This document shows, piece by piece, positions 144-4,701 of a stretch of DNA of 64,000 nucleotides (position 1 is its first letter; the number at the start of each line of letters is the position of its first letter). The position numbers and the translations under genes were made by a program. The notes beneath the pieces were generated by a model that ran no database searches, was not told the DNA's origin, and saw only the letters and a program-made list of their open reading frames with translations. Source of the stretch: Actinomycetota bacterium (lineage in GTDB: Bacteria > Actinomycetota > Coriobacteriia > Anaerosomatales > UBA912); assembly GCA_018334075.1 (NCBI GenBank), contig JAGXSC010000068.1, positions 1 to 64,000 on the forward strand. The letters run 5' to 3'.

Positions 144-791
144 CTAATATTTAACCACAAACACACTGTTGGCCACTTCCCGTCCGATGACATGAGTTAC
201 ACCATCTACCTCTATTGTGATAGGTCCAAAGAAAGGTGCTACCTCGCGGATGAGTACCTGGCTACCCGGATACATATTCATCGACCCGAGGTAGGCCAAC
301 ATGGCCTCATCCTCCTCGGTTACCCTTGAGATAAGCAGGCTGGCTCCAGGCTCATGATCCCCAAGTGGAGTAGCCTCGATCAAACTGACATGTCCCTCGG
401 CGGTGGGAATGGGATGTCCATGCGGACAGGAGTCGGGATTGTCCAAAAACTTTTCGAGCCTTTCAAGGACTCTGGAAGATAGCGCGTGCTCCAATCTGCA
501 CGCATCTTCATGAGCCTCGTCCCACGACATCCCGAGTATGTCGACGAGAAAGCGCTCGGATATCCTGTGGCGGCGTATGATGTCCAACGCCAAGACCTGA
601 CCCTGCGCGGACAGTGAAACCTTGCCGCCGCTGCGGGTAATAAGCCCCCTCGACTCAAGTCGCTTCAGTGTGGCTGTGACCGTAGGGCCGGAAACTCCCA
701 TAGCAGCCGCGATCTTTGTCGGTCGGGTCACTCCGTTTTCAGATATCTTGTATATCGCTTCCAGATACTCTTCGAGAGTCGCTGTGGACAT
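144..791 (-). CDS. DtxR/MntR-family metal-dependent transcriptional regulator
   Basis: Predicted metal-sensing repressor of 215 residues. Residues 1-60 form a winged helix-turn-helix (ATLEEYLEAIYKISE, then a recognition region around VSGPTVTATLKRLESRGL). A central His/Glu/Asp-rich dimerisation and metal-binding domain follows (RRHRISERFL, DEAHEDACRLEH). The last 70 residues resemble the FeoA/SH3-like domain of long family members. The ATG at 789-791 is preferred because GGAGG lies 5 bases upstream; an ATG 12 bases further up overlaps that ribosome binding site. A dyad at 840-857, overlapping a TAGAAT -10 hexamer, resembles DtxR-type boxes and suggests autoregulation. Whether it senses iron or manganese cannot be told from sequence alone. 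Confidence 0.9.
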   Translation of the reverse strand: MSTATLEEYLEAIYKISENGVTRPTKIAAAMGVSGPTVTATLKRLESRGLITRSGGKVSLSAQGQVLALDIIRRHRISERFLVDILGMSWDEAHEDACRLEHALSSRVLERLEKFLDNPDSCPHGHPIPTAEGHVSLIEATPLGDHEPGASLLISRVTEEDEAMLAYLGSMNMYPGSQVLIREVAPFFGPITIEVDGVTHVIGREVANSVFVVKY

Positions 792-839
792 CACAACCTC
801 CACACCTTCAGTGGGGGGAATGGCTCGGGAAATGCTTTT

Positions 840-857
840 TGTTAGGTCATTCTAACA
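840..857. promoter_or_regulatory. Dyad operator candidate for the DtxR-type regulator
   Basis: TGTTAG (840-845), six bases, then CTAACA (852-857) is a perfect 6-bp inverted repeat. It keeps the TTAG...CTAA halves typical of DtxR, IdeR and MntR operators. It lies 49 bases upstream of the regulator's start and overlaps a minus-strand TAGAAT hexamer (849-854) that could be its -10 box. No good -35 is visible at 17-18 bases. Binding by the neighbouring regulator is an inference. Confidence 0.6.
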
Positions 858-996
858 CCCCCGGAAAGCGTGCGCTATCAACCCCACGCAGAAATTCGCC
901 TAAAATAGCCGATGATCCGGATTTCAGCTCTTATAATCCGTTGGTCGCTTATTTTCTACCGCTAATCACGTATATTGAATATTTCCAAAAAACCCC

Positions 997-1025
997 TTGA
1001 CCGACGATTCGCAACAAAGTAAGGT
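997..1025 (+). promoter_or_regulatory. Promoter of the structured RNA
   Basis: TTGACC (997-1002), a 17-base spacer, then TAAGGT (1020-1025) is a good housekeeping-sigma arrangement on the plus strand. The predicted start point, about 7 bases on at 1032-1033, coincides with the first base of the closing stem of the RNA candidate. No protein-coding start follows. Confidence 0.65.
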
Positions 1026-1032
1026 GATACAT

Positions 1033-1208
1033 GCCCCAAGAGGTTGGACTCGAAGTATAGGGAAAAGCAGTGTACCAGTAGCTGCCGGCGGAGGTTCATG
1101 ATTGCGAGCACGCGTGAGTTGGCTCGAAGGATTGATCACCCAAAGGAAAGAAATGGGAAGTTGCCTAGTACTTACTCCTAGAGCGAGGTTTCTTGGGGCG
1201 TCTCTTTT
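1033..1208 (+). ncRNA. Structured non-coding RNA, 6S-like candidate
   Basis: Seen directly: GCCCCAAGA (1033-1041) pairs perfectly with TCTTGGGGC (1191-1199). Inside it, CTCG pairs with CGAG, then AAGTATAGG pairs with CCTA-G-TACTT with one bulged base. The apical part contains CGAGC/GCTCG and two side hairpins (GCAG/CTGC and CCCA/TGGG). One long rod of about 167 nt, closed end to end, with a wide central opening and starting at a promoter, is the layout of 6S RNA, the RNA-polymerase regulator. The 3' side ends in GTCTCTTTT, a weak terminator-like tail. No SRP, RNase P or tmRNA signature is present. The 6S assignment is inferred from architecture, not from conserved bases. Confidence 0.5.
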
Positions 1209-1214
1209 GCCAAG

Positions 1215-1580
1215 CTAGGGTCTGTACACGATCTTGGCCACAGGCGATTCCCACACCACTACCTCTTTGACGCTAACTCTTCGGTCCACTGTCGCCGATA
1301 GGGCCTCGAAGATCACCCTCGCCAGATTTTCCGCAGTCGGATTTAGTGTATTGAACGGCTCGACGTCATTTAGGTAAACGTGATCGTAACTCGCAAGGAC
1401 TTGCGCAAGATCGCTCTTGAGTTGCTTGAAGTCATAGACGATCCCGATTTCATCGAGCGTCTCTCCTGCCACAGTCACCTCTATGTCCCAGGTGTGGCCG
1501 TGAAGTAAGCTACACTCGCCCGGATAACCACTGAGCACATGTGCGGCGTCGAAATGGGACTTGACGGTCAGCTCGTACAA
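1215..1580 (-). CDS. queD: 6-carboxytetrahydropterin synthase (QueD family)
   Basis: A 121-residue single-domain protein of the 6-pyruvoyl-tetrahydropterin synthase fold, the usual length for QueD. It converts dihydroneopterin triphosphate to 6-carboxytetrahydropterin for queuosine and other deazapurines. Zinc ligands are visible as FDAAH near residue 14 and LHGHTW near residues 27-29; the distal DHVYLND and the PTAENLA segment match the family. It is the last gene of the isc-mnmA-rnh string, 17 bases after the RNase H gene. No queC, queE or queF lies in the window, so a queuosine role is inferred from the family. A pterin-modifying paralogue is the alternative. Confidence 0.88.
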   Translation of the reverse strand: MYELTVKSHFDAAHVLSGYPGECSLLHGHTWDIEVTVAGETLDEIGIVYDFKQLKSDLAQVLASYDHVYLNDVEPFNTLNPTAENLARVIFEALSATVDRRVSVKEVVVWESPVAKIVYRP

Positions 1581-1597: not shown

Positions 1598-2077
1598 CTA
1601 AAACAACGTGTCGCTTACAGAAACCTCATTCGATGAAGGTGCGTTGCCAACCTCGCCCCGGGCATCTATCGCTTCGTTGACCAAAAAGTCTGCTTCTTTG
1701 TTCTGCTCGCGAGGTATATAGATCACGCGAAAAGATTCGAACTTCTGTAACAAAGCACGCGCCTTTTGGTGCAGCGGCTTGAGATTAGCATGCTTGACTC
1801 GATACTCTCCGTTGATCTGCTTGACCACAAGTTCACTGTCGGCACAAGCAGTAATCTGCGTGACGCCTGCGAAATGGGCCACCTCAAGTCCCCAGATCAG
1901 AGCCTCATACTCGGCGATATTGTTGGTGGCCTCGCCGAGGTAGCGGCCGCCAGAGTACTCTATAGAACCGTCATCGGCAAAGAGAACGAAGCCAACGCCG
2001 GCAGGTCCCGGATTACCCCTGGCTCCGCCGTCCGATTTGAGGAGAGCCTTATGCAACTGGTTCTCCGTCTCCGGCAT
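1598..2077 (-). CDS. rnhA: Ribonuclease HI family protein
   Basis: Hydrolyses the RNA strand of RNA-DNA hybrids. The protein is about 159 residues. Acidic active-site residues appear in order: LKSDGGARGNPG (Asp), NIAEYEALIWGL (Glu), CADSELVVKQ (Asp), then REQNKEADFLVNEA (terminal Asp). This is the bacterial/archaeal-like class without the basic protrusion of E. coli RNase HI. The ATG at 2075-2077 overlaps the upstream zinc-ribbon gene by 29 bases. A TTG at 2054-2056 has a better-spaced GGAG and overlaps the upstream stop by only a few bases, so it may be the true start, seven residues later. Further upstream extension is not supported. Confidence 0.88.
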   Translation of the reverse strand: MPETENQLHKALLKSDGGARGNPGPAGVGFVLFADDGSIEYSGGRYLGEATNNIAEYEALIWGLEVAHFAGVTQITACADSELVVKQINGEYRVKHANLKPLHQKARALLQKFESFRVIYIPREQNKEADFLVNEAIDARGEVGNAPSSNEVSVSDTLF

Positions 2078-2789
2078 CGATAACGACCAGCATCCGGCGG
2101 CAAGCCGGGCAGACTCCGACCGCGGAGCCCGCCAGTAGTACCCGAACGGCATCAGCGGGCAGTGACATCCTGCAAGCAGTGCACGTCTCCCCCTGCAACT
2201 GTCCGACTGCGAGTTGGTCTTTGGCCTCTTTCAGTGACTCATATTTAACGCCGAGGTCCTCCGGCAACTCGGCCAATGTTTTATCTCGCTCCTGCAGCTG
2301 CTCGGCGATATCTACCTGAAGCTCTCCGCCGACCTTCTTGAACACCTCAATTAGCTGTTCTTCCCTGGATTCAAGTTTTTGGAGAGCCTCTTGCACCTGA
2401 TCCAGCTGCTGCTTGGCCTTTTCGGCGCGCTCCATCAGGCTTACCTGCTCCATCTCAAGCTTCTCGCGGCGCCTTCTGAGGGCATCCATCTCACGGGTGA
2501 TGTTGAGCAGTTCCTTTGGATTGGTCACCTCGCCAGACATTATCTTGCGCTGCTCGGCATCTATCTTCTCTCTTAGGCCTGAGCACTCGTCATCTATCCT
2601 GGCCACCTCGCGCTCAAACCGGGAGAGCAGCTCTTTCGACTTGACCTTTAGCGACTCGACCTGCCGCTTCTTTGCTCTGGTCTGAACAACTGCGTGCATC
2701 TCAGGCATCTCATCAAGGCGCTTGCGCAATCGCATGATCCCGGAATCCAAATCCTGGAGCCTGATAAGAGTCAGGCCGATATCGTGCAT
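2049..2789 (-). CDS. Coiled-coil protein with C-terminal C4 zinc ribbon
   Basis: About 246 residues. Residues 1-190 are almost entirely charged heptad sequence (RLRKRLDEM, EKLEMEQVSLMERAEKAK), forming a long antiparallel coiled coil. The C terminus carries a four-cysteine ribbon, CTACRMSLP...CPACRRML. This matches the zf-RING_7/DUF164 family, widespread in Actinobacteria and other bacteria, whose function is not settled. The ATG at 2787-2789 sits 12 bases below the end of the Nif3-like gene. A TTG at 2802-2804 overlaps that gene's TGA as TTGA and is an equally possible, translationally coupled start. Neighbours on both sides are nucleic-acid or metal proteins. Confidence 0.85.
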   Translation of the reverse strand: MHDIGLTLIRLQDLDSGIMRLRKRLDEMPEMHAVVQTRAKKRQVESLKVKSKELLSRFEREVARIDDECSGLREKIDAEQRKIMSGEVTNPKELLNITREMDALRRRREKLEMEQVSLMERAEKAKQQLDQVQEALQKLESREEQLIEVFKKVGGELQVDIAEQLQERDKTLAELPEDLGVKYESLKEAKDQLAVGQLQGETCTACRMSLPADAVRVLLAGSAVGVCPACRRMLVVIDAGDGEPVA

Positions 2790-2800
2790 ATCTCTTCTTG

Positions 2801-3916
2801 TCAAAACGTCCACCACTTTCGTTCGGGCCTGCCCACCGTGACGCGCTCCCGCGAAAGCCCGGGGGTGTTTCGAATCGCGTCTGCCAAGACGTGCACCAAA
2901 GGCCACTCGCTAATATCGTGACCGATCTCTATCACACAAAGATGTTGGGCTACAGCGTCCAACGCGTCATGATACCGTACTTCGCCCGCTATGAGCACGT
3001 CGGCATCGGCGGCGAGCGCGTCGGGAATCAACGATCCCGCCGAGCCACTCGCCGTGGCGACCTTCGACACTCTCGCCAAAGGATCGCCCCAGATGCGAGG
3101 CGCGCAATCCAACTTCGATGCTACCTGCTCGGCCAGGGACGCGAGTGTAGTGGAGGGAATAGTGCACACTCTGCCTAGGCGTGCCGCGCTCCTTGGGATT
3201 CGCATCTCAGTCAAAGTCACCAGCGGCTCCTCGTACGGGTGCGACGTCCTTATCGCCGAGACGACCCCGTCAACGGCAGCTGGAGCGCAAACGGCTTCGA
3301 TCCGCTGCTCGGGAACAGAGCTCTCCTGACCGGAGGCGCCGATATACGGGTTCGACTCCGCCATCGGCATAAATCTGCCTGTGCCGTCGACAGAAAACGA
3401 GCAGCCCTGGTAGGCTCCTATGCGCCCCGCGCCAGCTTTGGCCATTGCCTCTCTGAGGCTCACGGCCGACTCGGCGGGGACATACACCGTCACCATCACC
3501 ATCGGCATATATGAACGTTCGAGTGGTTCGCCTGACGGCACCCCGATTGCGTCCGCCAGTGCCGATGCTCCCTTTGGTGCGCGATCCAGATTCGTGTGCG
3601 CGGCGATTATCGAGATGTTGGCCTCTATCGCGGCTCGGACGATTTCGTAAGATCGCCCACCAGAAATCGGCATCTCCGGCTGCAAAAGCAAGGGGTGATG
3701 AGTCGCAAGCACATTCGCGCCCGCTGATATAGCCTGCTCAAGGGCGCTAACCGAGGGATCCAGGCACACATGAACGCCGCTTGCCGGCGCGTCTGGATCG
3801 CCACACAACAACCCCACCTTGTCCCAGGACTCGGCCCAATGCGAGGGAAACGCGTCCTCGATAGCGCGAAGAACGTCAACTACCCTCGGCTGATGTCGAG
3901 CATCACCTTTCGCCAC
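2801..3916 (-). CDS. Nif3-like dinuclear metal centre protein
   Basis: 371 residues, the long form of the NIF3/YqfO family (also annotated as GTP cyclohydrolase I type 2-like). Metal-binding motifs are visible: VLATHHPLLL near the N-terminal third, AAHTNLDRAPKG, and IEIGHDISEW near the C terminus. Between them is an inserted PII/CutA-like segment of about 100 residues (MVMVTVYVPAES...TSHPYEEP), as in YqfO. A GTG at 3914-3916 is chosen because GGAGGAGGAAA lies directly upstream; it lies inside the end of the PHP gene, a 37-base overlap. The cellular role of the family is unclear. Confidence 0.88.
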   Translation of the reverse strand: MAKGDARHQPRVVDVLRAIEDAFPSHWAESWDKVGLLCGDPDAPASGVHVCLDPSVSALEQAISAGANVLATHHPLLLQPEMPISGGRSYEIVRAAIEANISIIAAHTNLDRAPKGASALADAIGVPSGEPLERSYMPMVMVTVYVPAESAVSLREAMAKAGAGRIGAYQGCSFSVDGTGRFMPMAESNPYIGASGQESSVPEQRIEAVCAPAAVDGVVSAIRTSHPYEEPLVTLTEMRIPRSAARLGRVCTIPSTTLASLAEQVASKLDCAPRIWGDPLARVSKVATASGSAGSLIPDALAADADVLIAGEVRYHDALDAVAQHLCVIEIGHDISEWPLVHVLADAIRNTPGLSRERVTVGRPERKWWTF

Positions 3917-4701
3917 TTTCCTCCTCCATTCGGACAAACCGCGTAAGTGTAACCTGCGTCGGTCAAAGCGGCATACGCCTGCGAGAGCCCGTACCCTACC
4001 TCGGCGGGTTCATGAGCATCTGATCCCACGGTGGCCTCGACACCGGCACTGAAAAACGCCGAGAGCATCGGTGGAGCGGGATATATCTCCCCCACCGGTT
4101 TGCGAATTCCTGCCGTGCTTACCTCTATCGCCGTCCCGCCGAGAGCCGCACATGAAGCGGCGCTCTCATACCAGGCGTCGGCATCCCGAGTCGGCCTGTG
4201 CCCAAACTTTTTCGGCAGATCGGGATGCGCCATGCAGTCGAACAAACCGCTCGAGGCCGCGGCGCACCACTGGGAGAAGTAACGCTCGTAGACGTCATCG
4301 ACTGCAACCTCACCCCAACGCTCAAGCTCATGCGGACTGTCAAAGGCCCAACCGCCGAGAAAGTGCACGGAGCCCAAAAGGTAGGCGAGGCCAAGTCCGC
4401 GGGCTCGATCGATCATCTCCAGCATGTACTCCTGCCGATCTTCAAGCCAATCCACTTCAGCGCCGAGAACCACCTGTATCTCCCTGTAGCTTTCGGCAAG
4501 CGCAAGAACCTCGCTCGCGTACTCTTCGAGCTCACCAGGCGGAAGGCTTAGTCGGCGATCCGGGTCAAGGTCATCGGGAAGCGGAAGATGCTCGGTAAAC
4601 ACAAGCGTTGCAATACCCTTCTCGATGGCCGCCTCAACGTACTCGACAGCGGAGCCTTTCGCGTGACCGCAGCGCGCGGTGTGGACGTGGCAATCGATCA
4701 T
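3880..4701 (-). CDS. PHP-domain phosphoesterase, histidinol-phosphatase (HisJ-type) family
   Basis: 273 residues of a polymerase-and-histidinol-phosphatase (PHP) fold. Metal ligands are clear: MIDCHVHTARCGH at the start (HxH), FTEHLP, GAEVDW, GSVHFLGG, MAHPDLPKKFG and GSDAHEP at the end. The family includes histidinol-phosphatase (histidine biosynthesis) but also other phosphoesterases; no his genes are nearby, so the substrate is uncertain. The ATG at 4699-4701 overlaps the mnmA stop as ATGA, the commonest coupling in this window. An in-frame ATG at 4708-4710 is the alternative. Confidence 0.85.
   Translation of the reverse strand: MIDCHVHTARCGHAKGSAVEYVEAAIEKGIATLVFTEHLPLPDDLDPDRRLSLPPGELEEYASEVLALAESYREIQVVLGAEVDWLEDRQEYMLEMIDRARGLGLAYLLGSVHFLGGWAFDSPHELERWGEVAVDDVYERYFSQWCAAASSGLFDCMAHPDLPKKFGHRPTRDADAWYESAASCAALGGTAIEVSTAGIRKPVGEIYPAPPMLSAFFSAGVEATVGSDAHEPAEVGYGLSQAYAALTDAGYTYAVCPNGGGKWRKVMLDISRG

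Follow-up and report, generated by a model that had tools for sequence, protein, structure and literature searches.

Y RNAs (Ro60/Rsr) have a near-invariant end-to-end stem and a variable distal part, and occur as several paralogues. According to a 2022 abstract (PMC9130861), 6S RNA is widespread except in Actinobacteria. Ms1-like RNAs, which bind the polymerase, occur in Actinobacteria, and Ms1 itself is about 300 nt long, with a HAD IB hydrolase gene beside it (PMC9130861, PMC11077062).

The window analysed here is a 64,000-nucleotide stretch of contig JAGXSC010000068.1 from an Actinomycetota bacterium of the order Anaerosomatales (class Coriobacteriia). Near its start, the initial annotation described a structured RNA under a promoter of its own, possibly 6S RNA. 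Comparative evidence supports a structured RNA whose promoter-set start coincides with its closing stem, and a conserved, independently transcribed RNA almost certainly exists at this site. The RNA looks like an unrecognised class, which would found a new family. The newness concerns the family itself; structured orphan RNAs in general are already known. No literature on this RNA was found in the open library, an absence that is no proof of novelty.

Locus, promoter and transcript ends

The main copy lies between dtxR and queD and is on the opposite strand to both in nearly all genomes, which argues against a leader. The usual order is dtxR (opposite strand), the RNA, then queD and the RNase H, zinc-ribbon, nif3 and PHP genes (opposite strand). 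Copies adjoin the dtxR/queD pair in 66 of 99 cases; the remaining 33 lie elsewhere, many of them after gatB, a gene identified by reading the locus sequence, while the other neighbours were identified with Pfam. The coordinates of the features are collected in Table 1.

A DtxR-box-like palindrome (TTAGGTCATTCTAA, window 841-857), possibly autoregulatory, is found just upstream of the dtxR-type gene. An operator link between DtxR and the RNA was considered and rejected, since with the pattern used such palindromes lie upstream in just 4 of 99 cases.

The promoter TTGACC-17-TAAGGT is present as first annotated, and the same layout precedes the RNA in 99 relatives. When the copies are aligned on the RNA start (n = 99), they have in common TTG(A/C)C and TAnnGT, 17 bases apart, preceded by A/T-rich stretches. 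Conservation in the −35 element reaches 1.8 bits per position, and the A/T-rich stretches fall at about −39 to −42 and −46 to −50. A generic sigma-70 scan does not list this promoter because it demands 9 of 12 consensus bases. The −10 element would set the transcription start at the first bases of the closing stem (P1), and we infer that the RNA is independently and strongly transcribed from its own promoter.

The covariance model built from relatives (R1, described below) matches the window at 1030-1204 (E 9e-34). The start is expected at 1031-1033, with a U-rich tail ending at about 1209; positions 1201-1209 are probably the 3' end, where transcription would terminate. The sequence 3' of the RNA is pyrimidine-rich and often U-rich among the copies and, as judged by eye, is followed in some genomes by a terminator-like hairpin. 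A resemblance of the tail ACACCUCUUUU to the anti-Shine-Dalgarno end of 16S was dropped, as the bases differ between genomes. No reading frame is conserved across the RNA copies, and a coding reading was rejected on this ground.

Table 1. Coordinates of the RNA gene, its elements and its neighbours in the window
Feature	Position	Strand	Basis
DtxR-type metal-dependent repressor with FeoA domain, divergent neighbour	144..803	-	Pfam Fe_dep_repr_C 1.5e-32; conserved
UP-element-like A/T-rich stretch	970..996	+	A/T enrichment in 99 copies; putative function
−35 element TTGACC	997..1002	+	TTG(A/C)C in 99 copies
−10 element TAAGGT	1020..1025	+	Family consensus TAnnGT, 17-base spacer; 99 copies
RNA gene	1031..1209	+	Model R1 match; predicted start and end, from promoter position and tail
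P1 closing stem, 5' strand	1032..1045	+	14 pairs, 97.7 to 99% of cells paired; compensatory changes
P2, 5' strand	1049..1050	+	Pairs with 1182-1183; covariation 1049-1183, both pairs compensatory
P4, 5' strand (GCAGT)	1067..1071	+	Pairs with 1160-1164
Near-invariant core, 5' side (GTACCAGTAGCTGCCGGCGG)	1072..1091	+	Relatives
GNRA terminal tetraloop (GTGA) of distal hairpin	1114..1117	+	119/120 copies
Near-invariant core, 3' side (AAGGAAAGAAATGGGAAG and bases after)	1143..1173	+	Relatives
P1 closing stem, 3' strand	1187..1200	+	As for the P1 5' strand
Pyrimidine/U-rich 3' tail TCTCTTTTG	1201..1209	+	Position and character kept in 99 copies
queD (6-pyruvoyl tetrahydropterin synthase), convergent neighbour	1215..1580	-	Pfam PTPS 1.8e-40; conserved
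Downstream cluster of RNase H-like, zinc-ribbon coiled-coil and Nif3 genes	1598..3937	-	Conserved

Fold, covariation and variant copies

The fold of 1030-1210 alone (−52.6 kcal/mol) is no more stable than those of shuffled sequences (z +0.24; 113 of 200 shuffles as good), so proof of structure rests on comparison. In a structure-blind MAFFT alignment of 21 sequences, 93.4% of pair cells are standard and two-sided changes occur in 24 of 44 pairs. The covariation score, 0.369, compares with a maximum of 0.145 when partners are slid; the consensus structure scored here is the RNAalifold product of the same 21 sequences. A structure-blind MAFFT alignment of 95 copies gives, among its strongest covarying pairs, 40-133, 9-165, 38-135, 83-90, 20-154 and 57-116 (position 1 of the RNA is window 1030). 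In alignments fitted to the structure, the score is 0.531 (at most 0.146 slid) for the second class described below alone and 0.543 (at most 0.117 slid) for both classes together.

The structure is one long rod consisting of P1, the short helices P2 to P7 with internal loops between them, and a terminal hairpin. The 9-bp perfect stem described in the initial annotation (1033-1041 with 1191-1199) is confirmed and backed by compensatory changes, and wobble pairs lengthen it to 1032-1045/1187-1200. The sequence of P1 is nearly invariant; several of its pairs do not vary at all and many hardly do, with position 9 free to change as a pair (AU, GC, CG). The strongest covariation in the RNA is that of P4, at positions 40-133 and 38-135. 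The inner helices are also backed by compensatory changes. In the structure predicted from the alignment, the wide central opening of the initial annotation is a series of conserved internal loops alternating with paired segments. Conserved bases, which the initial annotation did not recognise, are seen once relatives are aligned, about 45 positions being invariant in the 21 sequences. The core is roughly GUACCAGUAGCnGCC opposite GGUAnGAAAnGGGAA, both nearly invariant, and a GNRA cap is present on 119 of 120 copies, compared with 33% of shuffled segments. In two families the core has an additional hairpin in its 3' half.

The promoter, P1 and the tail persist in short (88-91 nt) and diverged (140-160 nt) paralogues, in which the core is lost or changed; P1 is therefore a module in its own right. 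The 88-nt form is found at three loci (L318, L319 and L320, at about 1001-1088 in each), where it has P1 and its own TATAAT-like −10 element; in L319, the one locus examined in this respect, it lies about 115 nt ahead of a phasin-like gene. Weak diverged relatives (E 5e-8 to 7e-5) are seen in a third lineage of the phylum (L282 2719-3148 and L283 3001-3161), in tandem in L282 and at both loci preceding a lipoprotein-like gene on the same strand.

Distribution among genomes

Similar DNA was found by blastn in 53 of 61 related genomes, the weakest of these matches possibly being due to chance, with identities of up to 83% within the family and about 70% within the order. Model R1 was built from 21 relatives, and R2 and R3 were enriched with further copies. 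R1 matches 63 of 69 Anaerosomatales genomes (49 of the 51 good ones), with E down to 1e-40 and one to three copies per genome, and none of the 231 genomes sampled from other Coriobacteriia. With R2 and R3, the RNA also turns up in a second class of Actinomycetota, in 28 of 36 genomes, a few of these having weak matches only; a second family that was probed returned the identical 36 genomes and therefore belongs to this same class. Many copies in the second class still adjoin the RNase H, zinc-ribbon and nif3 genes, and these shared neighbours point to vertical inheritance of the RNA; queD can be about 900 nt away there, or is not detected nearby. At one second-class locus (L252 3001-3931), about 300 bp separate the RNA from the RNase P RNA gene, the two facing away from each other.

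Pattern matches confirmed by the model are mainly in records labelled as Coriobacteriia, Anaerosomatales or Actinobacteria MAGs; named matching records include Coriobacteriia and Anaerosomatales MAGs and Coriobacteriaceae bacterium EMTCatB1. Those in Streptomyces, Salinicola, Marinococcus and others were rejected as chance. A 52-nt match (L284) and weak matches in families f44, f60 and f68 may also be chance and were left out of the counts. Among viral contigs, neither the exact core pattern nor the P1 pattern occurs, and a phage origin was rejected, as the model confirms none of the 27 matches to a looser pattern. The RNA is naturally absent from the queD-dtxR site of a 94% complete Anaerosomatales genome (G028), in which the two genes are consecutive with no room for it, and from the same site in a sister family in Coriobacteriia; it is thus not indispensable.

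Proposed function, alternatives and comparison with known RNAs

The presence of the RNA in nearly all of one order and most of a second class implies that it should serve a general use. We propose a stand-alone, strongly transcribed RNA of about 175 nt that would act in trans as part of an RNP, with P1 as a protein handle and the distal core as the working domain, a reading to which we give about an even chance on the basis of the sequence comparisons. The promoter would put the start where the first bases form one strand of P1, the 3' end forming the other, so that P1 would hold a protein and also shield both RNA ends. The core would fold into the working domain, with its near-invariant internal loops and GNRA cap making a tertiary fold. 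Specific recognition of P1, by a protein or by processing machinery, is suggested because its bases are nearly invariant though the pairs could vary; this invariance could instead reflect termination or RNase processing rather than a protein handle. The diverged and short paralogues would fit a division of the RNA into two modules. More tentatively, and in our view possible rather than probable, the copies may form a modular RNA superfamily of deep-branching Actinomycetota, in which a constant promoter, P1 and U-rich tail serve as a putative protein plug and the distal domain is swapped, cut short or duplicated, as a Ro-independent analogue of Y RNAs.

Identity with 6S RNA, or with a second RNA of the 6S type, such as Ms1, that mimics an open promoter to bind RNA polymerase, is improbable. 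The length, rod shape, end-to-end stem and own promoter are all in its favour, as is the occurrence of polymerase-binding RNAs of the Ms1 type in Actinobacteria (PMC9130861, PMC11077062). Against it, the Rfam 6S model (RF00013) gives no match at E up to 10 in 900-1300, nor in the relatives, and the genome has a better 6S candidate at another locus (C3:5951-6121, minus strand, full length, E 9e-6), at 35.8 bits below the Rfam cut-off of 46.4. Matches to 6S are present in 60 of 69 Anaerosomatales genomes, 44 of them over the cut-off, at loci other than that of the new RNA, with aspS beside them in at least 16 of the 21 loci examined, and the 6S loci are not recognised by the model of the new RNA. 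The conserved internal loops of the new RNA are sequence-specific and, in the predicted structure, broken by paired segments rather than forming a single open bubble, and Ms1 differs in its length of about 300 nt and its HAD hydrolase neighbour. The 6S identity of the initial annotation was thus abandoned, a better 6S match at another locus being one of the outcomes that it had itself named as refuting. Its suggestion of a possible new RNA class has held up, no Rfam 15 family matching, at the gathering score or a low E-value, in the window or overlapping the RNA at about 30 relative loci and nothing meaningful appearing at E up to 10 around it (900-1300). The 6S candidate itself (L031 1501-1671) is located just downstream of aspS; the 44 of 69 Anaerosomatales genomes with 6S above the cut-off are in contrast to the statement in the abstract of PMC9130861.

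It is somewhat less probable still that the element acts in cis, whether as the leader or riboswitch of a neighbouring gene or as an antisense RNA to the 3' end of queD. In most genomes a gap of roughly 14-90 nt does separate the end of the RNA from that of queD, which is on the opposite strand, but both neighbours are on the opposite strand, the paralogues adjoin unrelated genes such as gatB, and in the second class queD is distant or undetected nearby; a riboswitch or leader was rejected, as the next gene at the main locus is convergent, the paralogues' neighbours vary and no co-oriented target is present. A ligand-binding or catalytic RNA acting alone, with the core as a pocket that P1 merely closes and terminates, is unlikely, though less so: the near-invariant internal loops and GNRA cap suggest a compact tertiary fold, whereas there is no expression platform or regulated gene downstream and the short paralogues have no core. 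Conservation by chance, or of a repeated DNA element with no RNA function, is hardly credible, for although some genomes hold several copies, compensatory changes and a conserved promoter are found, and of the one to three copies one is fixed in synteny.

The proposed trans-acting RNP RNA belongs to a family that has no Rfam entry and is now a defined molecule with a testable structure; cultured strains of Anaerosomatales are now available (PMC9686372), making a search for its partner feasible. RNase P RNA (RF00010) is a separate gene in the genome (C24:28023-28376, 301 bits), which rules out this identity. With raiA, OLE and ROOL, the new RNA shares conservation, a stand-alone gene and a function not evident from the neighbours, but it has no Rfam match to any of these orphan structured RNAs. 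Like Ms1, it is a stand-alone structured RNA kept in synteny in Actinobacteria; the identity was rejected on a comparison of length and neighbours (175 nt; dtxR, queD, RNase H, zinc ribbon, nif3). Like 6S RNA, it is a rod of similar length with an end-to-end stem, standing alone under its own promoter, but it has no sequence or model match to 6S, for which these genomes carry a separate gene next to aspS, and it is predicted to have conserved internal loops where 6S RNA has a single open bubble. Identity with Y RNAs was rejected, as no TROVE (Ro) protein was found in the 69 Anaerosomatales genomes (the control genome, Deinobacterium, was positive) and there is no Rfam Y RNA match; what the new RNA shares with Y RNAs is the nearly invariant end-to-end stem, the variable distal part and the occurrence of paralogues.
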